Assembly (NCBI RefSeq): GCF_000020605.1
Contig: NC_012781.1
Span: 1,675,501-1,739,500 of the forward strand
Length of the DNA stretch: 64,000 bases
Source: Agathobacter rectalis ATCC 33656
GTDB lineage: Bacteria; Bacillota; Clostridia; Lachnospirales; Lachnospiraceae
Reading direction: 5' to 3'
Part shown: one piece after another, positions 3,401 through 32,461 of the stretch
Numbering within the stretch: the first letter of the stretch is position 1
Layout: each line of letters begins with the position of its first letter
Notes under the pieces: generated by a model
Database searches by the model: none
What the model was told of the DNA's origin: nothing
Seen by the model: the letters and a program-made list of their open reading frames with translations, nothing else
Made by a program: the position numbers and the translations under genes

Positions 3401-4813
3401 TTATGCTGTGAAATCTACTGAATTTCCGTTATCTCTCATAATCTGTGTCACAAGTCTTTCTTCAGCGCGATCCTGCATCATATCGCTGTCTATGCCGCTG
3501 TCAGAGCTGTTTGAACCATTATAGGAATTTGTGCTCTCCTGCTGTCTGCTGTCGTTTGCAGCACCCTGCTCGAGATTCCTCTCAAACTCATGTGATGCAA
3601 CGGTGATTTCCACCTCATTTACCCTGATGCCTGAATTGTTTAAGGCTTCCTTGAGATTGACCATCTGTGTCTGTAAGGCTTCTTTTACAGCCTCATTTGA
3701 AACTGCAATTCTTGCAGATATCTCGCTGTTCTTCTGAGATACGTTGATATACATTCTTCCAAGGCTTTCAGGTGTAAGCTGAAGGTTAATTGCCGATTCT
3801 TCAGTGGTGTTTGATATGCTCATACTGTCGACAATCTGTCTGATGATATCGGTCGTATCAACACGTAATCGGCTTTGTGACTGTGACATTTCAAATGAAG
3901 TATCGGTATTCAGCTGTTCGCTGACAGATGCATGAAGTACTGAATTGTCTGAGTGTGCGTCATCATCATGATGCAACACGCGCTCACCGGAATCATCAAA
4001 GCTACTGTCAACCTGAGACTTTGACTGAGTCTTTTCTGTATTTTCATCTGATATAATACCATTGCCTGTTTCGCCTGAAGAAGTGCCTTCGTCCGAGTTT
4101 TGGTAAGAACTGTCCTGTGTACCGCCATCATATACCTTAACAGCTTCATCAGCAGTGTCGTTTATATTCTGACCCGAAGCTGCTGTATCGTCATAGCTGC
4201 TGTCAACCGTTTTTTCCGTTGTATCAGCCGAAGAAACTATATCTGCATCTAGTATTTCACCATCATCTGAAGCAGTAAGCTGTGATAATAAATCAAGCTG
4301 TGCATCATTTTCAGATGCAACCTGAGACACATCATTAAACAGTGCAGTAAAGTCGGCATTTAAAACAAGTGCCTGTGGATCAGATGCATTTCCGGTGACC
4401 TCACAATATAATGCCGACAGATTTGCAGGGTTGAGTAAATCCATAGCTGTCAGTCCAAGAAGCTGCATTGCATTATTAAGTTCATCCTCAGATATATCGA
4501 GGTCATCAGTTACTTTTTCAACTATCTGCGAAGATATATCATCTGTGATTTTTTTAACTTCGCTTTCTGTAGGGCTGTTTTTTGATGCAGTTTTGATGCT
4601 TATTTCCTTAGTATTGTTTTTATTTAAAGTATAAGAGTTTCTTCGCTTTAAAAATGTAGTGCTGTTATCCTGCACAGCTGTCCGGCCGCCAAGATAGCTT
4701 TTAAAGTCAATACCGGATTGTGCAGCTGTTTGCGTTACAGCCTTCTGCCCTGTCGAAACATTCCGTCCACCTGATACATTTGGTACAACAGGTGATATTG
4801 TATTGTCTGCCAT
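3401..4813 (-). CDS. fliK: Flagellar hook-length control protein FliK
   Basis: FliK measures hook length and switches export specificity from hook to filament subunits. The 470-aa protein has a long, low-complexity Ser/Asp/Glu/Gln-rich middle (about residues 170-310). This is typical of the variable-length ruler region. A conserved C-terminal domain follows: 'INLQLTPESLGRMYINVS' and 'LNNSGIRVNEVEITVA' (about 340-405). The acidic, repetitive middle evolves rapidly and gives little sequence similarity. It lies between the ylxF-like gene and flgD, as in Bacillus subtilis. Confidence 0.88.
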   Translation of the reverse strand: MADNTISPVVPNVSGGRNVSTGQKAVTQTAAQSGIDFKSYLGGRTAVQDNSTTFLKRRNSYTLNKNNTKEISIKTASKNSPTESEVKKITDDISSQIVEKVTDDLDISEDELNNAMQLLGLTAMDLLNPANLSALYCEVTGNASDPQALVLNADFTALFNDVSQVASENDAQLDLLSQLTASDDGEILDADIVSSADTTEKTVDSSYDDTAASGQNINDTADEAVKVYDGGTQDSSYQNSDEGTSSGETGNGIISDENTEKTQSKSQVDSSFDDSGERVLHHDDDAHSDNSVLHASVSEQLNTDTSFEMSQSQSRLRVDTTDIIRQIVDSMSISNTTEESAINLQLTPESLGRMYINVSQKNSEISARIAVSNEAVKEALQTQMVNLKEALNNSGIRVNEVEITVASHEFERNLEQGAANDSRQQESTNSYNGSNSSDSGIDSDMMQDRAEERLVTQIMRDNGNSVDFTA

Positions 4814-4853
4814 ATTCTCCTCCTTTCTTTTATTATTGTAACAAGATATGCTA

Positions 4854-5723
4854 TCAGTTTTGTGAAGGATTCATAATCTTAGTAACCTTTGCCGCCGTAG
4901 CCGAATCCATTTTACCAAGGATATTACCTCTCGACTGGGCATCCATGGCATTTAATATCTTGGCAACAAGTGACAGATTGTCGGTCATGCTGTCAAAAAT
5001 AGCTGCGGCCTCCTTAGGCTTCATTTTGGAATATGTCTGGGCATAATCCTTAATTTCATCATCCTGTTCAAGCTGTTCACACACCTGTTTATATAAGATT
5101 TCTGCATTGGCAGGATCTACCTGCTCGTAGAATTTCTTATATTCTTTTATATCGGGTGCTTTATCTGAAAAAACAACCTCCTCATAGTATTTTTCTTTTT
5201 CCTCCTCAAAGGCTGCCTGCTCCTCCTTATAGGTGCTCAAATCCTGTATCTGGGCATTTAAATCATTGATTGTCTGGGCATCTGCCTGATTCTTGCTATT
5301 GGCATCATCCAATTGCTTTTCGAGCTCCTTAATTCTCGAAACCGCATCGTCCAAATTTGTGTAGCCTGCGGTCTCTGTAGACTCAGATGCAGTGATATTG
5401 CCGGAATCAGGAAGTATCTTACTTAGTACAGGCACATCCTTTAGTGCCGGCGCAAGCACAGTCGAGCCAAAGCCACCCACATCTGCTTTTACAAAAACTG
5501 CAAATATTCCAAGCCATATTGCAATAATAAGTATAGTAACAAGCACCATGACTATCTTGCTTGAGACAGAATCACTGTCATCATTTTCTGCATCGGGCTT
5601 ATCGGCTTCATGATTCTTCTTTGCTTTCTTAGCCGCCTTTTTAGCGGCTTTTTCTTCCATTTTCTTTTCTTTTTTTGTTTTCTTAGTATCCTTGGTTGAT
5701 TCTGCTTCGTTTAGTTCTGCCAT
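4854..5723 (-). CDS. ylxF: YlxF-like membrane protein with MgtE-N/FliG-like domain
   Basis: The 289-aa protein has a highly basic N-terminus (Lys/Ala-rich, residues 1-45), one membrane helix (about 57-80, IVMVLVTILIIAIWLGIFAVF), and a coiled coil (about 125-185). It ends in a helical domain 'YSKMKPKEAAAIFDSMTDN' and 'AKILNAMDAQSRGNILGKM', which is the MgtE-N / FliG-middle type repeat. This architecture and its position between fliJ and fliK match YlxF of Bacillus, a relative of the stator chaperone MotE. A role in flagellar assembly or stator handling is an inference. The start is supported by GGAGG just upstream. Confidence 0.75.
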   Translation of the reverse strand: MAELNEAESTKDTKKTKKEKKMEEKAAKKAAKKAKKNHEADKPDAENDDSDSVSSKIVMVLVTILIIAIWLGIFAVFVKADVGGFGSTVLAPALKDVPVLSKILPDSGNITASESTETAGYTNLDDAVSRIKELEKQLDDANSKNQADAQTINDLNAQIQDLSTYKEEQAAFEEEKEKYYEEVVFSDKAPDIKEYKKFYEQVDPANAEILYKQVCEQLEQDDEIKDYAQTYSKMKPKEAAAIFDSMTDNLSLVAKILNAMDAQSRGNILGKMDSATAAKVTKIMNPSQN

Positions 5724-5735
5724 ATTTCCTCCGGA

Positions 5736-6173
5736 CTACGAATTATAGGTAAAGCTCACAAGCTGGTCTATCTCTTTGGATTCGTTGTCTTTTTCCTCTT
5801 TTTGAAAATCCTCAAATTTCTTATCGCGCAGCTTCTCATGCGTCTTACGCTCTTTCATAAGCTCATTCAATGCCACTCTTTTAACCTCCAGCATATCCTC
5901 CGCTTTCTTTACATTCATAAGCTGTGTGCGGATAGCCGATTTGAGTGAATTTATGTTTTTTTTGCAAATATTAATTTCAGATATATTTAAGCTGCCTGAA
6001 AGCTGTTCCTTAAGAGCAGCTTCATAGACTGCACGCTTTTTAAACAGCTCTTCGAGCTTTTCTTTTTCAATCAGATAAGCACGGTTTGCTTCCGAAAACT
6101 CGTTCTTTGCCTGTGTTTCAAGCTTTATTTTTATATCAAGTATATTTTGCATGCTGTATTTGAATTTTCCCAT
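5736..6173 (-). CDS. fliJ: Flagellar export protein FliJ
   Basis: FliJ is the coiled-coil stalk of the flagellar type III export apparatus; it binds the FliI hexamer and FlhA. The 145-aa protein is almost wholly charged coiled coil, starting 'MGKFKYSMQNILDIKIKLE' and continuing with heptad-like Leu/Glu/Lys repeats, as the family shows. It begins one base after the fliI stop codon, so translational coupling is likely. Sequence identity in FliJ is always low; length, coiled coil and gene order decide the call. Confidence 0.85.
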   Translation of the reverse strand: MGKFKYSMQNILDIKIKLETQAKNEFSEANRAYLIEKEKLEELFKKRAVYEAALKEQLSGSLNISEINICKKNINSLKSAIRTQLMNVKKAEDMLEVKRVALNELMKERKTHEKLRDKKFEDFQKEEKDNESKEIDQLVSFTYNS

Positions 6174-6174
6174 A

Positions 6175-7296
6175 CTACTCGAACACCTTCTCTAAAAGCT
6201 CAAGTTCCTCTTCAAAGCTGAATTTCTCATCTGTTCCCTGACAAAGGAATGAGTTAACAGCACCAATTTTTTGAATAGCATAGTCGATATCTTGGTTTGA
6301 GCCGTTTTTGTATGCACCGATATTGATAAGATCCTCAGCCTCCGTGTATGTGGCTAGCACGTTTTTTAATCTGCCGGCGAGATTTTTGTGCTCCTTAGTT
6401 GCTATAGCACTCATAACTCTCGAAATACTCTGCAGTACATCAATAGCCGGATAATGATTTTTATGCCCCAGCTTTCTATCGAGCATGATGTGGCCATCCA
6501 AAATAGAACGCGCCGTATCTGTAATAGGCTCATTGAAATCATCTCCATCGACAAGCACAGTGTACAGCCCTGTGATAGAGCCTTTATCAGCTCTTCCTGC
6601 TCTCTCTAAAAGCTTTGGCATCTCAGAATACACACTTGGTGGATATCCTCTCGTCACAGGCGGCTCTCCGGATGCCAGTCCTATCTCTCTTTGAGCCATA
6701 GAAAAACGTGTCAGTGAATCCATCATCAAAAGCACGTCTTCACCCTTGTCACGAAAATATTCAGCGATGAGAGTACTTTTACCGACTCCTGAGCCTGCAA
6801 AAATACCGATACGCTGTCCCTTGCCTACTGTGATGAGGCCATCTACTGCCTTCACTCCCAGAGGAAGCACATCACTGATAATTTCTCTGGACATCGGATC
6901 AGGTGGCGGTGCTTCTATCGGATATTCACTGTCAAGCTTAAGGTCTTTTTCATCACAGTCAGTTACACGGCCTATTCCGTCAACTGTATGGCCTAAAAGC
7001 TCATCACCGACAGCTACCGTGAGAGGATGTCCTGTATTTTCAACTATACAGCCGACACCGACTCCCTCCACATTGTCAAACGGCATCAGAATAATATGTG
7101 AATCTTTAAATCCTACCACCTCAGACATGACATAATCCCTGCGTTCCTTGTCAAGAAAAATCATGCAAAGATCATTGAGCTTAGCCTTGGGACCAATTGA
7201 TTCTATCGTAAGACCGACAACCTTGTCCACCTTGCCAAAGCATTTATAGTACTCACCGCTTTTTAATTGTAAATACTTTTGTGCTACCTCTAACAA
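6175..7296 (-). CDS. fliI: Flagellar export ATPase FliI with internal deletion
   Basis: FliI normally forms a hexameric ATPase that energises flagellar export. Here it is 373 aa against about 435-440 in the family. The N-terminal domain, the P-loop GSGVGKST (residues 168-175) and the later motifs LLMMDSLTRFSMAQREIGLA, GEPPVTRGYPPSVY and TDTARSILDGHI are intact. However, the P-loop runs straight into IAEYFRDKG (177-185). The segment normally between them, of about 64 residues, is missing. It carries the catalytic-Glu motif of the GERGREV type and the SDQPA motif. The frame is kept across the junction (near 6765-6771), so the protein is probably expressed but should lack normal ATP hydrolysis. 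The start is a TTG at 7296 with AAAGGG 7 bases upstream. Either a real deletion or an assembly error is possible. Confidence 0.9.
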   Translation of the reverse strand: MLEVAQKYLQLKSGEYYKCFGKVDKVVGLTIESIGPKAKLNDLCMIFLDKERRDYVMSEVVGFKDSHIILMPFDNVEGVGVGCIVENTGHPLTVAVGDELLGHTVDGIGRVTDCDEKDLKLDSEYPIEAPPPDPMSREIISDVLPLGVKAVDGLITVGKGQRIGIFAGSGVGKSTLIAEYFRDKGEDVLLMMDSLTRFSMAQREIGLASGEPPVTRGYPPSVYSEMPKLLERAGRADKGSITGLYTVLVDGDDFNEPITDTARSILDGHIMLDRKLGHKNHYPAIDVLQSISRVMSAIATKEHKNLAGRLKNVLATYTEAEDLINIGAYKNGSNQDIDYAIQKIGAVNSFLCQGTDEKFSFEEELELLEKVFE

Positions 7297-7332
7297 TTAA
7301 AATCCCTTTCTTCCAACACTCATACAGCTATA

Positions 7333-8190
7333 TCAGCTGCAAAGTGAGCGTATATCCTTCACCAGATTGTTGAGCTCCATATCAATTCCACAGTCAAACA
7401 CTCCAAAGCTTGTCTCAATGAAGCAGCCGCTCGTGTCAAGATTTGCGTCATTTACAACCTCGATATCAATATCATTGCCTATGCGTTCCTGAATCTCATC
7501 CAAATGCGACATCATAAACTTATAGTTTGAATAAGCTACATGTATACGAAATTCTTTGCCCACCTCTATATTTGACATGGTATTTTCAACCAGATGAAAC
7601 AAGATATCCTTTTTATCATCGAACTGTATTTTAAAGACCTTGTTAAAAACCTGAATTATTGCATCTATCAGATCTGATTCAAGCTCCTTTGAATAAGCAT
7701 CATATTTTGATTTCAAAGAGCTTTCTTTATCTGAAAGCTCCTGTCTTAAAGATATTTCTTTTTCGTCAAACTCTCTCTGACACTCAGCCAGACCATCCTC
7801 ATAGCCCTTTGACTTGTTATCAGCATATAGAATCTGTGCACGTTGTTTAGCCTCATCTAAAAGTCTTGAGGCCTCTGCCTTTGCTTTGTCCAATATGCTA
7901 TCAGCCTCAAGCTTTGCTTCCTCTAAGAGCCTTTCCTTCTCAGCTGAAACATCTATTTCTGTGACTACAGCAGCATTTATGCCATCATTGAAGCCACTCT
8001 CCTGCGTGTCCGGACTTTGCGATTTTGTTTTTCCTAAGCTGCTCTGTGCATCAGATGATATGCCTGTATAACTATCAGCGGGGCGGCTTATGGAGTCGGC
8101 AAAAATCTGCTTTATCATGGAATTGCTATTTATCACACGGACATTTTTATCTTCTCCGGCAACACGATACTGCTTTAATATATTAGACAA
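7333..8190 (-). CDS. fliH: Flagellar assembly protein FliH
   Basis: FliH is the peripheral stalk/regulator of the FliI ATPase and tethers it to FliN at the C ring. The 285-aa protein has a low-complexity N-terminus, a long Ala/Glu/Lys coiled coil (about 88-175, with repeats such as LLDEAKQRAQILYADNKSKG), and a compact C-terminal domain. That domain, of the kind shared with the V-ATPase E subunit, includes 'LIDAIIQVFNKVFKIQ' and 'GCFIETSFGVFDCGIDMEL'. It overlaps the end of fliG by 8 bases. Because its partner FliI is apparently deleted, the intact FliH suggests either recent damage or retained non-catalytic function. Confidence 0.88.
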   Translation of the reverse strand: MSNILKQYRVAGEDKNVRVINSNSMIKQIFADSISRPADSYTGISSDAQSSLGKTKSQSPDTQESGFNDGINAAVVTEIDVSAEKERLLEEAKLEADSILDKAKAEASRLLDEAKQRAQILYADNKSKGYEDGLAECQREFDEKEISLRQELSDKESSLKSKYDAYSKELESDLIDAIIQVFNKVFKIQFDDKKDILFHLVENTMSNIEVGKEFRIHVAYSNYKFMMSHLDEIQERIGNDIDIEVVNDANLDTSGCFIETSFGVFDCGIDMELNNLVKDIRSLCS

Positions 8191-25624: not shown

Positions 25625-25653
25625 ATTATATAACAATATGGAAATTTTATCAA
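25625..25653 (-). promoter_or_regulatory. Predicted gltX promoter overlapping upstream stop codon
   Basis: -35 TTGATA (25648-25653, 5/6) and -10 TATAAT (25625-25630, 6/6) with a 17-base spacer. The TGA stop codon of the upstream coiled-coil gene lies inside the -35 box. Confidence 0.65.
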
Positions 25654-26798
25654 TCCTCAGATTGAACTTCCATATCAAGCTCTGCGATTTTATTTAAAAT
25701 TCTGTTTACCTCGTGGATTCTGTCACCAAGCTCGTTCCTGTGTGATAAAATCTCGCGTCTTAGCCTGGTTATAGTCTCCACATTGCAGGACATCCTGCCC
25801 CTTAATTTTTGTCTCCTGACTATAAGTTCATGCTTCTGCTCAACCATCTCCTTGTGATCCACAATAGCGTTTGTGTAGTTGAGCCATACTCTGGCATCGT
25901 AGAAGTCATTTTTACTAAGCACCGAAACAAGCTTTTTGCTGTTGTATTCCAGATCCTCGTTTGTCCTTCTGAAGCGCTCCTTGTCTTTTACAGCGAGAAG
26001 ATACTGCTCATAGTTGTATACAAATTCCTTTGAATTCTTCACATGATACTTCTCGTATGTATAATCAACAGCATTTTTTATACTTACATACTTGATCTTT
26101 ACTCTGTTTTCAAGAGCTACTGCTTTATTTTTGGATGCTGCAGCGCTTTTTACTTCATCTGAATAGCTTTGATATGTCAAAAGCACAAACGAGCCTGCAA
26201 CCGCTGAAAGAAGTGCCCCGATAAGCATAAAGATAGTGGTATCGGCTCCATATACAATCTGCATCAGCGTGCATACAGCTACCACCACAGCAAAAAATAT
26301 CACTAAAAGCACTGCGTACACCCTAAATGCCCGCTGTCTGCTTTTGGCATATTCACCATCTATATCGAACTGCACTTTTTCTCCCTCGAGATACCTCAGG
26401 TCTTTATTTATTACATCCAGACTGCTTTCGTTTTTTTCAAGACGCTTTATTGCCCGCGGAATCTCATCCTCCAGCTGCTGCATCTGCGCATACTGGCTGT
26501 CTGATATGCGGTTTTTGGTCTTTAAAAAATCACTTCTGGTCTTTTCGAGTGTCAATATGTTTGCAGCCGCATCATTCATGGTCTTTTTATCTGTCTCTGA
26601 CATATTTTCCATCCTTTCTATGTCAGTCAGATAATTTGTGACAAGTGCATACTCTGTTCTGTTATCCTCGAGTTCTCTGGCGGCATCAACCATCTGTTCA
26701 CATATTTCAACTACATTGAACCCTTTAGTACTCTCATCCGGTATACTCTCAATATGTAATTGTGTATCATCGGTCTTTTTTTTGCGTTTAAATAACAT
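25650..26798 (-). CDS. Coiled-coil membrane protein of unknown function
   Basis: I do not recognise this 382-aa protein. Residues 1-30 are charged and soluble. About 60-160 is predicted coiled coil ('MQQLEDEIPRAIKRLEKNES', 'LDVINKDLRYLEGEKVQF'). Two membrane helices follow (about 167-190, VYAVLLVIFFAVVVAVCTLM, and about 196-216, FMLIGALLSAVAGSFVLLTY). A second coiled coil runs from about 225 to 380 and ends in an acidic tail. The two helices with long cytoplasmic coils suggest a hairpin membrane anchor or scaffold. It is the last gene of the four-gene operon running from 32371 and overlaps the preceding helical-repeat gene by 11 bases. Confidence 0.75.
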   Translation of the reverse strand: MLFKRKKKTDDTQLHIESIPDESTKGFNVVEICEQMVDAARELEDNRTEYALVTNYLTDIERMENMSETDKKTMNDAAANILTLEKTRSDFLKTKNRISDSQYAQMQQLEDEIPRAIKRLEKNESSLDVINKDLRYLEGEKVQFDIDGEYAKSRQRAFRVYAVLLVIFFAVVVAVCTLMQIVYGADTTIFMLIGALLSAVAGSFVLLTYQSYSDEVKSAAASKNKAVALENRVKIKYVSIKNAVDYTYEKYHVKNSKEFVYNYEQYLLAVKDKERFRRTNEDLEYNSKKLVSVLSKNDFYDARVWLNYTNAIVDHKEMVEQKHELIVRRQKLRGRMSCNVETITRLRREILSHRNELGDRIHEVNRILNKIAELDMEVQSED

Positions 26799-27567
26799 GC
26801 GCCCTGTAATCCTCTTTGTATTTCAAAATTGTTTCTTTTGGTCTGCCCTCATCGCAACCATCTGAAGCTTCTGCATATACGCCCTTTAATACGTTGTCCA
26901 GATTATTTATTTCCTGCTCTGTGACACTATATTCCCTGACAATACGGGCATATCCTATGTCGTTATTATCAAGCTTATAGGCATATAGACAAGACCACAG
27001 TGATTTTCTGTCCCCATTTTGCCTGAAAGCCTCAAGATATAAATCCGCTGCTATATCAAACAAAAACAGCTGCACATAGGCTGTAGCCAGATTGTGATAT
27101 ATGTTTCCGTACAATTCACGCTCAGTATGCTTTGCATCCTCACATGACAGCAGCTTTTTGTATTCAAAAATTGCTGCAGTGTACTTTTTCTTCTCCATCA
27201 GTCTGTCTGCCCTGATTTTCAAGCACTCAAACTCGCTCTTTTCCTCGAGCTCCTTAAGTGCATCATGTGTGTTCTTAAGCTCCTCCTTAGTGCAGTAGCC
27301 GCTGTACTCAAGCAGCTCAGTCACAAAAGCAGACAGTCTGCCGTTTGTGGATATAATGGTTCTAAGATGCATGGCAAGCTTTGGCAGATGTGCATGGTTT
27401 TCAATCCAGGTGCACAGCTCAAGACTCATAAAGTCATCATCCAAAAGATATGTATTGTTGATTATATAATAATTAAGCTCCTCTATTGAGTAAACATTTA
27501 TAGACACACCCTCTATGTAATAGGGCATGGCTGCTATAGCTTCATTACACAGTAATAATTCTCCCAT
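26788..27567 (-). CDS. TPR-like helical-repeat protein of unknown function
   Basis: A 259-aa protein with no known family name to me. The N-terminal part 'IEGVSINVYSIEELNYYIIN' and 'DDDFMSLELCTWIENH' (about 18-55) is distinctive. Residues about 110-225 form helical hairpins resembling TPR units: 'LIRADRLMEKKKYTAAIFEYK' seen in part as RADRLMEKKKYTAAIFEYKK, 'YGNIYHNLATAYVQLFLFD' and 'AADLYLEAFRQNGDRKSL'. Such repeats usually bind partner proteins. It lies 8 bases after the stop of the ATPase-fold gene and overlaps the coiled-coil gene, so the four genes are probably made together. Confidence 0.72.
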   Translation of the reverse strand: MGELLLCNEAIAAMPYYIEGVSINVYSIEELNYYIINNTYLLDDDFMSLELCTWIENHAHLPKLAMHLRTIISTNGRLSAFVTELLEYSGYCTKEELKNTHDALKELEEKSEFECLKIRADRLMEKKKYTAAIFEYKKLLSCEDAKHTERELYGNIYHNLATAYVQLFLFDIAADLYLEAFRQNGDRKSLWSCLYAYKLDNNDIGYARIVREYSVTEQEINNLDNVLKGVYAEASDGCDEGRPKETILKYKEDYRAHVI

Positions 27568-27575
27568 ATACCCTC

Positions 27576-28814
27576 CTACATAGTCATCTCATAGTGCCAG
27601 ACTTTGCCCGAGCTCATAAATATTTCGCCAAATCCTAAATCCTTAATCTCTATATCTATCCTGTCATCAGATACAGGTGTCGCCGTAATTCTGATGCGTG
27701 TAGCCCTATCCGGCCTGGGCGGCATATCCGTAAGTCTTAGTGTCTCAATCTTTGCCTCCCGGCTTTTAGGAAGCTGCTTCCAGAAATCCACCTCATAAGA
27801 GCCTGAAATTATAACCTCACACTGCCCCTTGGATTCAAACCAGTTGCTTCCGGCACTGATAAGATTATAAAACGACAATTCTCCCTTATCATGTACCTTA
27901 AGGCTCAGATTGAACTTCATCTCATTCTCGCCCATATATACAAAAGGCCATTCTGCTTCCCTATCCCTCGTGGCTGCCGCATAGCATGCTCCCTTAGTAA
28001 AGAGGTTATTGCCCATGAACACTCGTCTGCCCTTGCACAAAAGTGCAACAGACTGCTTCATCCAGCCCTCAGCAAACGTATCTCCCACGAGAAAGACCGT
28101 TGAGATAATCTGATTCTTAAAGCTCTCATTTATTATATCCAAAAAGCTTTTGTCCTTATCATTTTTATCCAGAGTATAGCTTATGCTTTCATCTATAGAT
28201 ACTACCTGTGGCGTTGTGCGAAGATCCCTCTTTAGGGAATAAAAAAATATACTCTCCTTTTCCTGCATAAACATCACCACATCATGAAGCCACAGTGAAT
28301 TGTCCTGGTTCAGTGCAAAATAATAAAAGCTCTCCTTCCGGTCTATGACCGTAAGCTGTCTGGAATTTATGCCAAGCCTGACCGCCATGCCATAAAACAT
28401 GCTCACGTTCTCCTTTGTCAGCCTGTCAACACATATAACAAGCCTGTCAAAGGATGAAGGATTACCAAGCTTGGATGGCAGTTCCATAACCTTTTTAAGA
28501 AACAAGGCCAAAAGCTCCTCTGCCATAAATGAATCATCATCAATGACTATTTTTTCACTATTCAGTGCTCTCTTAAGCAGCTGGTCAATACACACCATCT
28601 CACCGCTTTTAGAGAGTCTTCTTGCCTCATCTCCATAATACCATTTGCCAATGCTCTTACGGCGTGCAAGTACAAGAGGAATCTGAAACTCCTCACTGCC
28701 CGCAACAGTGCTGACAGTCTCCGGCTCTTTCATATTCTGTTGAAAAAAACTAACCATAGCATAGCTGTCATTTAAATCTATGCCTATATAGTATGAATTG
28801 CCATTATGTCCCAT
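27576..28814 (-). CDS. DUF5716-like protein with actin/Hsp70-type fold
   Basis: A 412-aa protein that I associate with DUF5716 from memory. The N-terminus 'YYIGIDLNDSYAMVSFFQQN' resembles the phosphate-1 loop of Hsp70/actin ATPases (GIDLG-type). 'FDRLVICVDRLTKENVSMFY' and 'RLGINSRQLTVIDRKESFYY' follow the layout of DnaK subdomains. 'ISTVFLVGDTFAEGWMKQS' stands where the second phosphate/adenosine loops (GG-rich in DnaK) would be. The Gly pairs and the catalytic Asp/Thr of DnaK are not all evident, so ATPase activity is uncertain. The C-terminal 120 residues are beta-rich. It sits 11 bases after the 1181-aa partner gene. Confidence 0.72.
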   Translation of the reverse strand: MGHNGNSYYIGIDLNDSYAMVSFFQQNMKEPETVSTVAGSEEFQIPLVLARRKSIGKWYYGDEARRLSKSGEMVCIDQLLKRALNSEKIVIDDDSFMAEELLALFLKKVMELPSKLGNPSSFDRLVICVDRLTKENVSMFYGMAVRLGINSRQLTVIDRKESFYYFALNQDNSLWLHDVVMFMQEKESIFFYSLKRDLRTTPQVVSIDESISYTLDKNDKDKSFLDIINESFKNQIISTVFLVGDTFAEGWMKQSVALLCKGRRVFMGNNLFTKGACYAAATRDREAEWPFVYMGENEMKFNLSLKVHDKGELSFYNLISAGSNWFESKGQCEVIISGSYEVDFWKQLPKSREAKIETLRLTDMPPRPDRATRIRITATPVSDDRIDIEIKDLGFGEIFMSSGKVWHYEMTM

Positions 28815-28825
28815 TATAAATCCTC

Positions 28826-31800
28826 TTAAATCAGCTTAAACAGCTGCTTAGTCGCAGCATCCAGCCTTTTATATTCGTCTATATTGCTCTTTAAGGTTGT
28901 CTCATCAGACAGTGTATCTGAAATTATCATCTCATTAATCAGATTATAGCGGCTGTGATCATTGTCACCCGGTATATTGTTGCATGTAAGACGATTGCTC
29001 TCCTTCACCTCTATGCTGTTGTCATGCTCCTCAGTAATATAATACCTGATCAGCTCACCGAAAAATATGACAAATGTCTTTACGTATATGCCGTCGTACA
29101 TCTCAACCATATCCTCTGAATTAAACTCTTCGCCATCCTCGTCTCGGCTGTAATGCAGCACAACATGAGTCCCCGGAGTACTCTCATACTGTAAAAATGC
29201 CTTGTCATAGAGGAAATATTTCTCCAGCAGTCTGTAATCAAGCCTCGCAAAAAAATCAAAATACATATTGTTATATATATAATATTTAAGCAATGTATCT
29301 TCAATCTCAAGCTCAGCCTGAGTGATATCCGTTTTCTCAGCAAAATGCTTCAATAGGGCTAACTGGCAGGCATCATTTAATGTTCTGTTTCCAATAAATC
29401 GCTTTTCGATAATATCAAAAATAAAATCAGCCTTGCACCCGCCACTATGCAGATATCCATGTGCCACAAGAGATATATAAGCTAAAATCAGCTTATCATT
29501 TCCGGCTCTTTTATAGTATTCCATAAAGATATCCGATATCTTTTCAGGCTCAATCTGCGTATAAATACCCTGTTCGAGAATACGCTCATCAAGCTTCATG
29601 GAAGATATTGAAAACTTATCAGCGGCATGCCACAGATTAATCAGCTCGTCTGTAGGCCCGGTATAGTTTTCACACAGGTATTTAAGCACCAGATCACTGT
29701 ATTTGCCTGTTTTAAAGGCAGATATGGCAAGCTGCACCATAAAATCATCATCTACATGCTGCACTTTAAGCGCATTCTCACACAAAACCACCTTTGATGC
29801 GGCAGCAAGCATGTCTATTCCATACTCCATGGCCATATCATATGCCTTTTCATAGAGGCGGTTTGATACAAGCATGTCAATAAGATATTTTCTTGCATCC
29901 TTTTGCAGGGTATCAAAATTAATGCTTTGCAAAAACGGCCTGACGTAATCCTCATAATCGTGAAGCTGACAATATTTTAAAATTCTGTATCCCATAACAG
30001 CTTTGTAGGAATCAGAAAAGGATTCACTATAAAATACAGGTTTAAACAGCTTCAAATCATCCTTTGTAAAATCAGAATAATCCCTTACATGCTTAAAATG
30101 TGACACTATATACTGTGGTCTGTCAGGCGAGAGGCTTATACACCTGTCAAGGTATTTCTCGGCATCCATCAGCCTCTGCAGTCTGTATGAGATGCTTTTA
30201 ACATATCTATAGCCCCTTGAGTCCTCAAAAAGTATAACATAGTCGTTTGAAAACAGTTCAAAATAAGCACACTGGTCTGTAACCGGAACTATCTGAGGCT
30301 CCTTCATTTCATTCTGATATATGATAGCTCTCACTATGCGCTTATCAAATACAATAAGCTTGTGGGTATATATAATATCTGAAAAAGCTGCCGACAGCTC
30401 TTCATTGATAAATCCCAACTCAAGCATATCCTCGTATAAAACAGCCAGATTATCATCAATATGCCTAAGCTGTGCCTGGTCCATGGCAAACCTGCCCATA
30501 GCTTTCCTGTACTTGTGGTAGACCTCAGGCTCTGTTTCCTTGGCAGCAATTATATTGTTGTAAAGCACTGCAAGCTTTCGGTATGGCAGCTTATTATCAA
30601 AGCTGAAATACATCTGGATGATCTTTGGCACAGGGGAAATCTGCCTGTCATTCATCGTAAGGAGATACGACTCATACAAGCCTGTCAGACGCAGCTTATT
30701 CTCGATACCCAGCTCAAACCATTTATGAAAACAGGTATCATTTTTGTGTCCCTTAATCAGGTAGCTGCATATGATGCCGACATACTCTGCCTCCGGACAT
30801 ATCTCATAGGCTGCTGTAAGAAGCTCATATACTCTGTTATCGAACCCGCCTGCCAGATCAACCGCCTCAAAGATTGCTCCGGCAAGCTCCTTTGTCAGAG
30901 CCTTTTCCTTTACGGCCCAGCTTAGGATGCGAAGCTCAAATACCGACAGCTCCTTTATCAGATAAGGATCCTGTGATATAAGATAATAAGCTTCAATATA
31001 CAAATACGGAGACGAACAGCCTCGCAGTACCCAGTATTTTATATCTTTAAGCTTACCGGCACTGTCATCAAAATACTGATCCCTCAAAAATAAAAGTACC
31101 CAGAACAAAAGCACAGAGTCAGGATTTTCATAAAAAATCAGCTCCACTTCGTGTGTCATATTGTCAACGTATGAAGGCTCTCTCTCTAACAGCGTCATCA
31201 GATACAGATAATAGCCCCAGATTGGAGCTTTCTTATCAGGATTACTGTGCTTGAAATCATCAAGAATCCACTTAGCTTCCTGCCTTTGCCTGTTGATAAT
31301 AAATGCCTGAGCCTTCATCAGCTCATACATATGCTCATCCGGCATGAGTGCATGCAGGTGGTTTAATATGCTTATAGTCTCGTTTGCCCATACCCCGGTC
31401 ACTATCCGCTTCAGCCTGAAACTGGTATAAAGCTCCATGATTCCGACCATGCATTCCTTTATGTCCTTTGTCACAGCTATATCACTTATACTGCCATCAT
31501 CATCTCTTACACCGGCCGTGATATCTATTGTAAAGCTCTGATATACACCATCAATATATATGCGGCCAAAATTACGTCCGGCATGCATCGCAGATGCATC
31601 GATGATATACTCATACAGATATGTTTTACCTATAAAATCATCAAGCGTTAAAACAGGCTTAGACAGCTTTATGAATTCACAATCCGTGCGCAGGCGTATC
31701 TCGGTATATCCCCAGTTATCCTTTGTTATAGTAAAGCATCCACTCTGTGGCTCTTTAGAAGCCATAAAAATCTCCTCTGACTTGTCTACACTAATGGAAA

Positions 31801-32371
31801 CAGGCTGTTTTTTGTTTACGCCAATCAGAAACTCCTCCATATTCTGACCGGATGGTCTGGCGCAGGCAAAGCCCTCATAGGTCAGCCTCTCATATACATT
31901 GTCATAAGGAATTGTGTTTAAAAAATTGCGATTATAAAACAGATGATAAGCCTCATCCCAATTGGATGCCGCAAGCCTTGTAAAATCATCAAGGCTCTTT
32001 ACAGCTCCGGTGGATGCTTCCGCATAGAGCCTTGTGATTCTTGCACAAAAAGAAAGACTGTACTCTATCTGATTGCATACAATCACAAATTTGCCCTCGC
32101 AGGTATCGCCCTCCGTAAGGCCCTTACTGTTAAATTGATAACGAATCCTGACTTTCTCGCCCTCGAAGTGCGGATTCAGACACTCCATCCTTGGATTAGT
32201 CGAATAAACTATGCCACAGATTTTTATCTGATTCGTACTTTCTATTACAAAGCTTCCCGCTTCGCTTCTTCCCTCAATGACCGAAAGGTCTATTGTCTCC
32301 TCTGAAAACGCCAAAATCGGTTTCGTGCCATTAAATCTGCCGGCAGCTATCTGCCCTATACGTGCTCGCAC
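28826..32371 (-). CDS. Large DUF5717-like protein, beta domains plus helical repeats
   Basis: A very large (1181-aa) cytoplasmic protein that I associate with DUF5717 from memory. Residues 1-300 are beta-rich and appear to form two or three Ig/MSP-like domains: 'SEAGSFVIESTNQIKICGIV', 'KVRIRYQFNSKGLTEGDTC', 'SGCFTITKDNWGYTEIRLRT', and 'GRIYIDGVYQSFTIDITAG'. From about 320 onward it is helical, with repeated hairpins suggesting a solenoid. No signal peptide or catalytic motif was seen. The start is a GTG (32371) preceded by GGGGTAAC. It leads the four-gene operon and is divergent from the CobD/HisC-like gene. Confidence 0.75.
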   Translation of the reverse strand: MRARIGQIAAGRFNGTKPILAFSEETIDLSVIEGRSEAGSFVIESTNQIKICGIVYSTNPRMECLNPHFEGEKVRIRYQFNSKGLTEGDTCEGKFVIVCNQIEYSLSFCARITRLYAEASTGAVKSLDDFTRLAASNWDEAYHLFYNRNFLNTIPYDNVYERLTYEGFACARPSGQNMEEFLIGVNKKQPVSISVDKSEEIFMASKEPQSGCFTITKDNWGYTEIRLRTDCEFIKLSKPVLTLDDFIGKTYLYEYIIDASAMHAGRNFGRIYIDGVYQSFTIDITAGVRDDDGSISDIAVTKDIKECMVGIMELYTSFRLKRIVTGVWANETISILNHLHALMPDEHMYELMKAQAFIINRQRQEAKWILDDFKHSNPDKKAPIWGYYLYLMTLLEREPSYVDNMTHEVELIFYENPDSVLLFWVLLFLRDQYFDDSAGKLKDIKYWVLRGCSSPYLYIEAYYLISQDPYLIKELSVFELRILSWAVKEKALTKELAGAIFEAVDLAGGFDNRVYELLTAAYEICPEAEYVGIICSYLIKGHKNDTCFHKWFELGIENKLRLTGLYESYLLTMNDRQISPVPKIIQMYFSFDNKLPYRKLAVLYNNIIAAKETEPEVYHKYRKAMGRFAMDQAQLRHIDDNLAVLYEDMLELGFINEELSAAFSDIIYTHKLIVFDKRIVRAIIYQNEMKEPQIVPVTDQCAYFELFSNDYVILFEDSRGYRYVKSISYRLQRLMDAEKYLDRCISLSPDRPQYIVSHFKHVRDYSDFTKDDLKLFKPVFYSESFSDSYKAVMGYRILKYCQLHDYEDYVRPFLQSINFDTLQKDARKYLIDMLVSNRLYEKAYDMAMEYGIDMLAAASKVVLCENALKVQHVDDDFMVQLAISAFKTGKYSDLVLKYLCENYTGPTDELINLWHAADKFSISSMKLDERILEQGIYTQIEPEKISDIFMEYYKRAGNDKLILAYISLVAHGYLHSGGCKADFIFDIIEKRFIGNRTLNDACQLALLKHFAEKTDITQAELEIEDTLLKYYIYNNMYFDFFARLDYRLLEKYFLYDKAFLQYESTPGTHVVLHYSRDEDGEEFNSEDMVEMYDGIYVKTFVIFFGELIRYYITEEHDNSIEVKESNRLTCNNIPGDNDHSRYNLINEMIISDTLSDETTLKSNIDEYKRLDAATKQLFKLI

Positions 32372-32425: not shown

Positions 32426-32441
32426 GTAAATTATATACGAT

Positions 32442-32461
32442 TTGCAATGCTGTTGCAATGC
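32442..32461. repeat. Direct repeat TTGCAATGC, possible operator
   Basis: TTGCAATGC occurs at 32442-32450 and 32453-32461, with an 11-base period (one helical turn). The flanks extend it to ATTTGCA...TGCAAAT, an inverted repeat. It lies between the divergent DUF5717-like and aminotransferase genes and may bind a regulator of either. Confidence 0.4.

Follow-up and report, generated by a model that had tools for sequence, protein, structure and literature searches.

A DUF5716 protein of Lachnospiraceae is a degenerate, lidless Hsp70 by profile comparison, and its operon is apparently the remnant of a larger multi-Hsp70 operon

Several systems have been described in which an Hsp70 is degenerate or stands beside unusual partners; the papers cited here by PMC number are drawn on in excerpt. 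In the yeast ribosome-associated complex (RAC), Ssz1 is a lidless Hsp70 without ATP hydrolysis, which has kept the beta part of its substrate-binding domain (SBD-beta) and serves as structural partner of Zuo1 (PMC7083937). CnuD of the type III CoCoNuTs combines Hsp70 nucleotide-binding and substrate-binding domains (NBD and SBD), for which poor hydrolysis is predicted, with HEAT-like repeats (PMC11090510), and the GAP1-N2 neighbourhoods of actinobacteria and firmicutes contain HSP70, GrpE, a second Hsp70 and FNIII proteins with DnaJ or TPR (PMC7159879). In DnaK, K70 and E171 are catalytic and D194, T199 and D201 are implicated in the stimulation of the ATPase (PMC5240922); subdomain IIB of Hsp70 is contacted by GrpE (PMC10825016). 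Here, an operon of four genes, A to D, from Agathobacter rectalis ATCC 33656 is analyzed, which lies in a stretch of 64,000 nucleotides (NC_012781.1, positions 1,675,501 to 1,739,500; called the window). Judged by profile comparison, the product of gene B, a member of the family DUF5716, is a degenerate Hsp70 homologous to DnaK across the nucleotide- and substrate-binding domains. The operon probably encodes a non-hydrolysing Hsp70-derived complex, reduced from a larger multi-Hsp70 operon.

In the open reading frame (ORF) listing of the window, A-B-C-D are four minus-strand ORFs of 1181, 412, 259 and 382 amino acids (Table 1), with intergenic distances of 11 (A/B), 8 (B/C) and -11 bases (C/D, an 11-base overlap). 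In Pfam, A and B score above the cut-offs of DUF5717 (PF18984/PF18983) and DUF5716_C (PF18980), respectively. The descriptions of these families give no function, and C, D, the Hsp70 identity of B and the sister operon described below are not part of them. A literature search for DUF5716 and DUF5717 returned as its only match a single mention of DUF5716 in a curcuma-derivative paper. Within the literature searched, which was available partly in excerpt and comprised few subscription papers and no bioRxiv preprints, no description of the operon or of its four-Hsp70 sister form was found; closest to it come the GAP1-N2 neighbourhoods with HSP70 and GrpE and the CnuD Hsp70s.

B matches DUF5716_C with an E-value of 1.7e-103 (346.1 bits; Pfam gathering cut-off 34.7). 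Its kinship with Hsp70 emerges from a profile-profile comparison, in which 102 B sequences were set against 14 Hsp70s (L142-L155), MreB, four decoy families as well as A, C and D. The B profile matches DnaK at 96.3% (E 1.5e-9), spanning residues 8-397 of B and 3-488 of DnaK, compared to 0.5% for MreB and at most 0.5% for the decoy families and A, C and D. Block by block, residues 1-200 of B match DnaK 1-215, comprising lobe I of the NBD and the phosphate-2 region, at 97.4% (E 1.2e-11; MreB and decoys at most 1.1%), and residues 284-412 match the SBD of DnaK at 75.6% (E 2.4e-5; non-corresponding DnaK blocks at most 2.3%). Ordinary HMMER with a hidden Markov model (HMM) of H3, an Hsp70 of the sister operon, matches B in 76 of 104 Lachnospiraceae loci (103 fetched plus the window); all 76 matches are B segments, and that to the B of the window has an E-value of 8.4e-15. 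Furthermore, H2 of the sister-family locus L237, an ortholog of B, matches both DUF5716_C (6.6e-14) and HSP70 (4.8e-9) in Pfam. An ordinary scan with Pfam HSP70 (PF00012) matched none of 35 B-type proteins (the B of the window and 34 homologs), and neither B itself nor profiles of B, A and D gave a credible match in sequence searches of the PDB.

What B has kept and lost can be read from column counts over the 102 sequences, with the catalytic columns taken from 21 diverse B rows aligned with DnaK. Within the phosphate-1 motif, G11 is present in 101 of 102 sequences and D13 in 88, with Glu in a further 10; within SBD-beta, D392 is found in 101 and both G394 and G396 in all 102. At the columns of K70, E171 and T199 of DnaK, these residues occur in none of the 21 B rows, while D201 is found in one and D194 in 11, and the GGG loop, the phosphate-2 glycine loop of DnaK, is not conserved. 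The spacing between the phosphate-2 and adenosine motifs has a median of 71 residues in B (60-81 in 21 sequences) versus 143 in DnaK, which is about 72 residues fewer, and by its position the absent stretch corresponds to the GrpE-binding subdomain IIB. The C-terminal helical lid is missing as well: B ends at SBD-beta, the match stops at DnaK 488 and the lid block is unmatched. B departs from a canonical Hsp70 ATPase in its catalytic residues, in subdomain IIB and in the lid. It also evolves fast: over 36 loci, its mean pairwise identity is 32.7%, that of the adjacent aminotransferase 54.6%.

These results bear on an earlier note on this DNA, made from the letters alone. The families it proposed, DUF5717 for A and DUF5716 for B, are borne out by the Pfam matches above cut-off, and its placement of B in the Hsp70/actin superfamily by the profile match to DnaK. 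An ATPase-fold switch, as it had proposed, is not supported, given the unconserved catalytic columns and the shortened IIB stretch. Since the relationship is to Hsp70 including the substrate-binding domain and not to MreB, its cytoskeletal machine is left without support; of the cytoskeletal, envelope and quality-control roles it had offered, quality control appears the most plausible. Its observation is confirmed and its interpretation partly supported.

Compared to the Hsp70/DnaK system with GrpE, B shares the NBD and SBD-beta homology, and the sister operon contains three Hsp70s with all checked catalytic positions intact and a GrpE-domain protein. The differences are the missing lid and IIB stretch, the unconserved catalytic residues and the lack of a J-domain partner among the proteins scanned. 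At the level of sequence, the lidless architecture and unconserved catalytic residues agree with Ssz1. However, the partners of B would be TPR, solenoid and membrane proteins, and no J-protein was found; the comparison with Ssz1-Zuo1 is meant as an analogy and not as membership.

The origin of B is suggested by related families. An order-level search of 295 genomes revealed DUF5716_C at E<=0.001 in 142, 134 of them above cut-off. Of these 142 genomes, 48 belong to the Lachnospiraceae and 94 to other families, where the matches are mostly weak and often occur twice per genome. Twenty of the 94 neighbourhoods were fetched as sister-family loci (L236-L255). Their common layout is A1, A2, H1, X, H2, H3, H4, C, to which D is added in two of the 20 (L240 and L252, both with D orthologs), giving nine identified components. 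The proteins comprise about 390 (A1), 890 (A2), 558 (H1), 500-540 (H2), 547 (H3), 692 (H4) and 388 (C) amino acids; X mostly has 560-645, and 279 in L240. In Pfam, H1, H3 and H4 of L237 are HSP70 proteins (8e-70, 2.6e-58 and 5.6e-92), H4 with an additional VWA domain; X carries GrpE (9.5e-10), C carries TPR, and A1 and A2 carry DUF5717_N, A2 also DUF5717. GrpE was found in 17 of 18 X proteins and VWA in all 16 H4 proteins.

All catalytic positions checked are invariant in H1 (16/16), H3 (18/18) and H4 (15/15). In H2, K70 and T199 are found in none of 18 sequences and the D201 column holds Arg in 17, with D194 kept in 17. The mean pairwise identity over 12 sister loci is 79% for H1 and 77% for both H3 and H4, versus 28.5% for A2, 31% for X, 40% for H2 and 38% for C. 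The set A2, H1, X, H2, H3, H4, C is complete in 12 of the 20 loci. Some members are missing from L243, L249 and L255 despite continuing contigs. L245 and L254 run into contig ends, and L247 is fragmented. L238 and L251 carry A1 and A2 as one fused gene. L240 has the full set, with H4 (5343-7384) and C (4205-5231) each in two reading frames, a sign of decay or of an assembly error; its genome is the nearest to the reduction step. L253 (G1213) shows a Lachnospiraceae-like A-B-C; this genome, 86% complete with 5% contamination and filed under another family, may be misbinned.

A tree built from 102 Hsp70 sequences unites B and H2 in a single clade with a support of 100, and H2 of L240 stands beside B. 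On this tree, B is orthologous to the pseudo-Hsp70 H2. The four-Hsp70 sister operon is probably the ancestral form. Since H2 already lacks the catalytic positions, the pseudo-Hsp70 state would predate the reduction. The spacing between phosphate-2 and adenosine in H2 has a median of 143.5 (139 in L240), which is near that of DnaK; H2 thus still has a spacing of IIB length, which places the shortening of IIB and the loss of X over the same interval. None of H1, H4 and X was found in six frames of the 104 Lachnospiraceae loci by models that do find the sister genes. A search with HSP70 of the window genome (G000) and of G142 returned only DnaK-type Hsp70s and MreB. An aminotransferase gene, mostly divergent, flanks 41 of 104 Lachnospiraceae and seven of 20 sister loci, and valS is found at 19 of 104 and two of 20, respectively; these shared flanks agree with vertical descent. 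The Lachnospiraceae operon is apparently what remained after the loss of the ATPases and the GrpE-like protein, and the direction of change would be reduction rather than gain. Besides DnaK, the window genome encodes a second DnaK-like Hsp70 (G000:C1:21783-23507, L154; 594-aa frame), which groups with DnaK and not with H1-H4.

Several points weigh against this picture. In the profile comparison, the adenosine block of B on its own is not significant, and the H3 HMM fails on B in 28 of the 104 loci. The phosphate-2 Asp persists in 37 of 102 B sequences. Furthermore, the column equivalent to E171 is uncertain, and E161 of B (85/102) could be a shifted catalytic Glu. The fold of B, any complex it forms and peptide binding by its SBD are deduced from sequence. 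The Hsp70 tree was built by a quick method and has long branches meeting in places, and the genome-wide absence of other Hsp70s rests on two Lachnospiraceae genomes.

The partners of B can be described in part. A matches DUF5717_N (E 2.6e-272, 906.1 bits) and DUF5717 (E 4e-92, 309.1 bits), both with a gathering cut-off of 25. It consists of an N-terminal beta part, Ig-like by eye, a long helical solenoid and a C-terminal beta region, and is the counterpart of A1 and A2, which are separate genes in most sister-family loci (L237 and others); A would serve as scaffold. Neither C nor D reaches the cut-off of any Pfam family. For C, weak TPR matches are found in Pfam (best E 0.004), and its family profile matches TPR proteins of the PDB, mostly designed ones, with E-values up to 1.3e-19. 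In G440 and G752, two species of one other genus, B and C are fused to a single ORF (38% identical to each other), which points to a physical partnership of B and C. For D, a simple hydropathy scan flagged a hydrophobic segment in 65 of 66 homologs (residues 155-193 in the window; two segments in several homologs) versus six of 101 A, eight of 103 B and one of 97 C proteins. D would be an optional membrane anchor.

Profiles of the beta region (A1 part) of A and of the N-terminal domain of C were run on 38 genomes, six from Lachnospiraceae and almost none from the sister families, in which relatives of both regions exist. The A profile found five of the six Lachnospiraceae genomes (G594 was missed) and the C profile all six at E<=6.1e-20. 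Among the 32 other genomes, G359 (0.0076) was the only match for A and G069 (0.0041) the only one for C, both judged to be chance. A weak extra-family match to DUF5717 (L007/L141; 18.7 bits, below cut-off) was likewise judged to be chance, its ORF being coiled-coil and zinc-ribbon-like by eye.

Within the Lachnospiraceae the operon is nearly universal: the DUF5717 C-terminal model matches 388 of 397 genomes and 316 of the 320 high-quality ones. All nine negative genomes were searched for DUF5716_C, and seven lack it as well; these seven (G426, G488, G495, G525, G621, G698, G770) are fragmented into 110-220 contigs, so that loss or an assembly gap may be the cause. In a phylum sample, six of 398 genomes match DUF5717, five of them above cut-off and all five Lachnospiraceae. 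In a class sample, DUF5716_C occurred in 10 of 291 genomes, all Lachnospiraceae; this sample by itself had suggested that B is restricted to the family, which the order-level search disproved.

The synteny of the 104 loci is conditional on their selection by A or B (L038-L074 by B, L075-L114 by A, L115-L140 by B with mostly weak matches). Among loci whose contig extends far enough, 100 of 101 contain A and 102 of 103 contain C, L138 being the exception for both; five C copies were found only by six-frame search, outside the ORF calls. Order and strand of A-B-C(-D) are kept wherever the genes are present, apart from the solitary B of L138. Any other gene family is seen in 42 of the 104 loci at most. 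The co-occurrence of A, B and C is far beyond chance. D is present in 66 of 102 loci and missing from 36. Among 35 D-negative genomes, D was not found elsewhere with any weight (G425 weakly, 0.0014; 4/4 controls found). On a fast A tree with many long branches, the presence of D requires eight changes, six of them forced by well-supported branches.

Several claims of the earlier note can be weighed here. The ORF coordinates agree with its four same-strand genes in one operon, and the expected co-occurrence across genomes is found for A and C. Its helical-repeat partner C and coiled-coil membrane partner D are backed by the TPR matches and the hydrophobic segment, respectively. Its four-gene unit stands for the constant A-B-C and not for D, and the genes seem to be left over from an operon with nine identified components.

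Two loci deserve mention. In L138 (G417, 67% complete) a solitary B lies between unrelated genes, possibly a decaying operon. In L139, a 315-aa gene with two hydrophobic segments (6578-7525) occupies the position of D and is perhaps a diverged D; therefore, some absences of D may be diverged D genes.

How could such a complex work? The following model builds on the Hsp70 homology of B, its absent catalytic residues, the orthology with H2, the B-C fusion and the fact that the other genes are missing at the locus. B would have kept a remnant of the nucleotide site together with the substrate-binding beta domain and might bind nucleotide without hydrolysing it. Most likely, B would be permanently docked on C, the TPR protein, and on A, the solenoid scaffold; it would hold a partner peptide or tail without an ATP-driven cycle, similar to Ssz1. 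In lineages with D, the complex might be anchored at the inner side of the membrane. Its ancestor would be the larger operon, which has a VWA module, a GrpE-domain exchange factor and three Hsp70s whose catalytic positions are intact.

A more far-reaching version is possible, and we put it forward tentatively. Here, the sister operon would encode an undescribed chaperone machine, an obligate hetero-Hsp70 assembly of three ATPases (one of them VWA-armed), the pseudo-Hsp70, a dedicated GrpE-domain factor and an Ig/solenoid plus TPR scaffold. The Lachnospiraceae would have dropped the motors and the exchange factor and deleted the docking subdomain of the pseudo-Hsp70. What they retained, an inert core, would act as a membrane-linked scaffold that is near-universal and possibly essential.

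Alternatively, B-C-A could be a working chaperone front-end that captures clients and passes them, as RAC passes chains to Ssb, to the ordinary DnaK/GrpE, which would have replaced the dedicated H1, H3 and H4. The sister operons pair their own ATPases and GrpE-domain protein with the same pseudo-Hsp70, the window genome retains DnaK and the second DnaK-like Hsp70, and the relay of RAC provides a precedent (PMC7083937). However, no J-domain was found in the operon proteins of the window or in those of L237 and L240 that were scanned, there is no evidence for a contact with DnaK, and B evolves fast, so that this front-end is rather unlikely.

The chances are slight that the operon belongs to the GAP1-N2 type of conflict (defence) systems, whose effectors are under the control of HSP70 and GrpE genes. 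Like the GAP1-N2 neighbourhoods, in so far as they are described in the excerpt, the sister loci combine Hsp70, GrpE and TPR or beta-domain proteins, to which VWA is added. In PADLOC, sister H1, H3 and H4 match an unnamed candidate model, PDC-M61B (5.1e-5, 2.4e-8 and 5.6e-8), for which shared Hsp70 sequence may suffice; sister C matches PDC-M71B (1.9e-10) and, far under cut-off, antiphage_GapS6b of NCBIfam, for which shared TPR sequence may suffice. In contrast, none of the four window proteins matches PADLOC at E<=0.01, and no GTPase or effector was recognised in the Pfam-scanned operon proteins, with only part of the neighbours covered. Moreover, A-B-C is near-universal in the Lachnospiraceae and the flanks recur in both clades, unlike patchy defence systems.

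Equally improbable is an RNA-binding, non-hydrolysing Hsp70, of the kind proposed for CnuD, that directs the complex to RNA or ribosomes. As far as the excerpt goes, CnuD is likewise a degenerate Hsp70 with NBD and SBD, predicted to hydrolyse poorly and linked to HEAT-like helical repeats (PMC11090510), but no McrBC-type GTPase, nuclease or RNA-binding domain was recognised in the operon proteins scanned. An actin-like, polymerising ATPase switch of the cytoskeleton, to which the superfamily motif GIDLN and the membrane coiled-coil partner D could be fitted, is very improbable indeed, as the profile match is to Hsp70 including SBD-beta with MreB at 0.5%, the catalytic residues are not conserved and D is dispensable.

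With a non-hydrolysing, reduced complex as the preferred reading, DUF5716 is assigned to Hsp70 and a nameless, near-universal operon of the Lachnospiraceae becomes testable. It would represent a natural experiment, in which an ATP-driven chaperone machine was reduced to a non-catalytic scaffold and the gene for the exchange factor vanished over the same interval as its docking subdomain. The sister operon with four adjacent Hsp70 paralogs is worth study in its own right.

Table 1. Coordinates of the operon genes and their features within the window.
Feature	Position	Strand	Remark
Gene A (DUF5717, 1181 aa)	28826..32371	-	GTG start
A1-equivalent part of A (residues 1-290)	31502..32371	-	L237 A1 matches DUF5717_N positions 13-289
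DUF5717 C-terminal region of A (residues 875-1178)	28838..29749	-	Pfam match
Gene B (DUF5716, 412 aa)	27576..28814	-	Lidless pseudo-Hsp70 by profile; ortholog of sister-operon H2 by tree
Phosphate-1 motif GIDLN of B (residues 11-15), retained	28770..28784	-	Column counts
Adenosine-motif-like stretch of B (residues 240-250)	28065..28097	-	G244 102/102
SBD-beta-like C-terminal domain of B (residues 285-412), no lid after	27579..27962	-	Profile match to DnaK SBD
Gene C (259 aa)	26788..27567	-	Conserved N-terminal domain and TPR
N-terminal domain of C (residues 1-105)	27253..27567	-	Found here only in this operon
TPR region of C (residues about 111-194)	26986..27237	-	Weak Pfam TPR; family profile versus PDB TPR proteins
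Gene D (382 aa)	25650..26798	-	Coiled coils (by eye) flanking membrane hairpin; putative optional membrane anchor
Hydrophobic hairpin region of D (residues about 155-210)	26168..26336	-	Hydropathy scan; end 210 by eye
Promoter-like site TTGCAA-17-TATAAT	32430..32458	-	Upstream of A; consensus match only

No NCBIfam model scored above its cut-off for A, B, C or D, and a tRNA scan found none. The recurring neighbours (aminotransferase, gltX, valS and others) look positional only and give no functional clue. Promoter-like matches barely exceed chance in the region (29 found versus 21.0 +/- 5.1 expected); besides the site upstream of A, there is a second one at about the end of D, preceding gltX.

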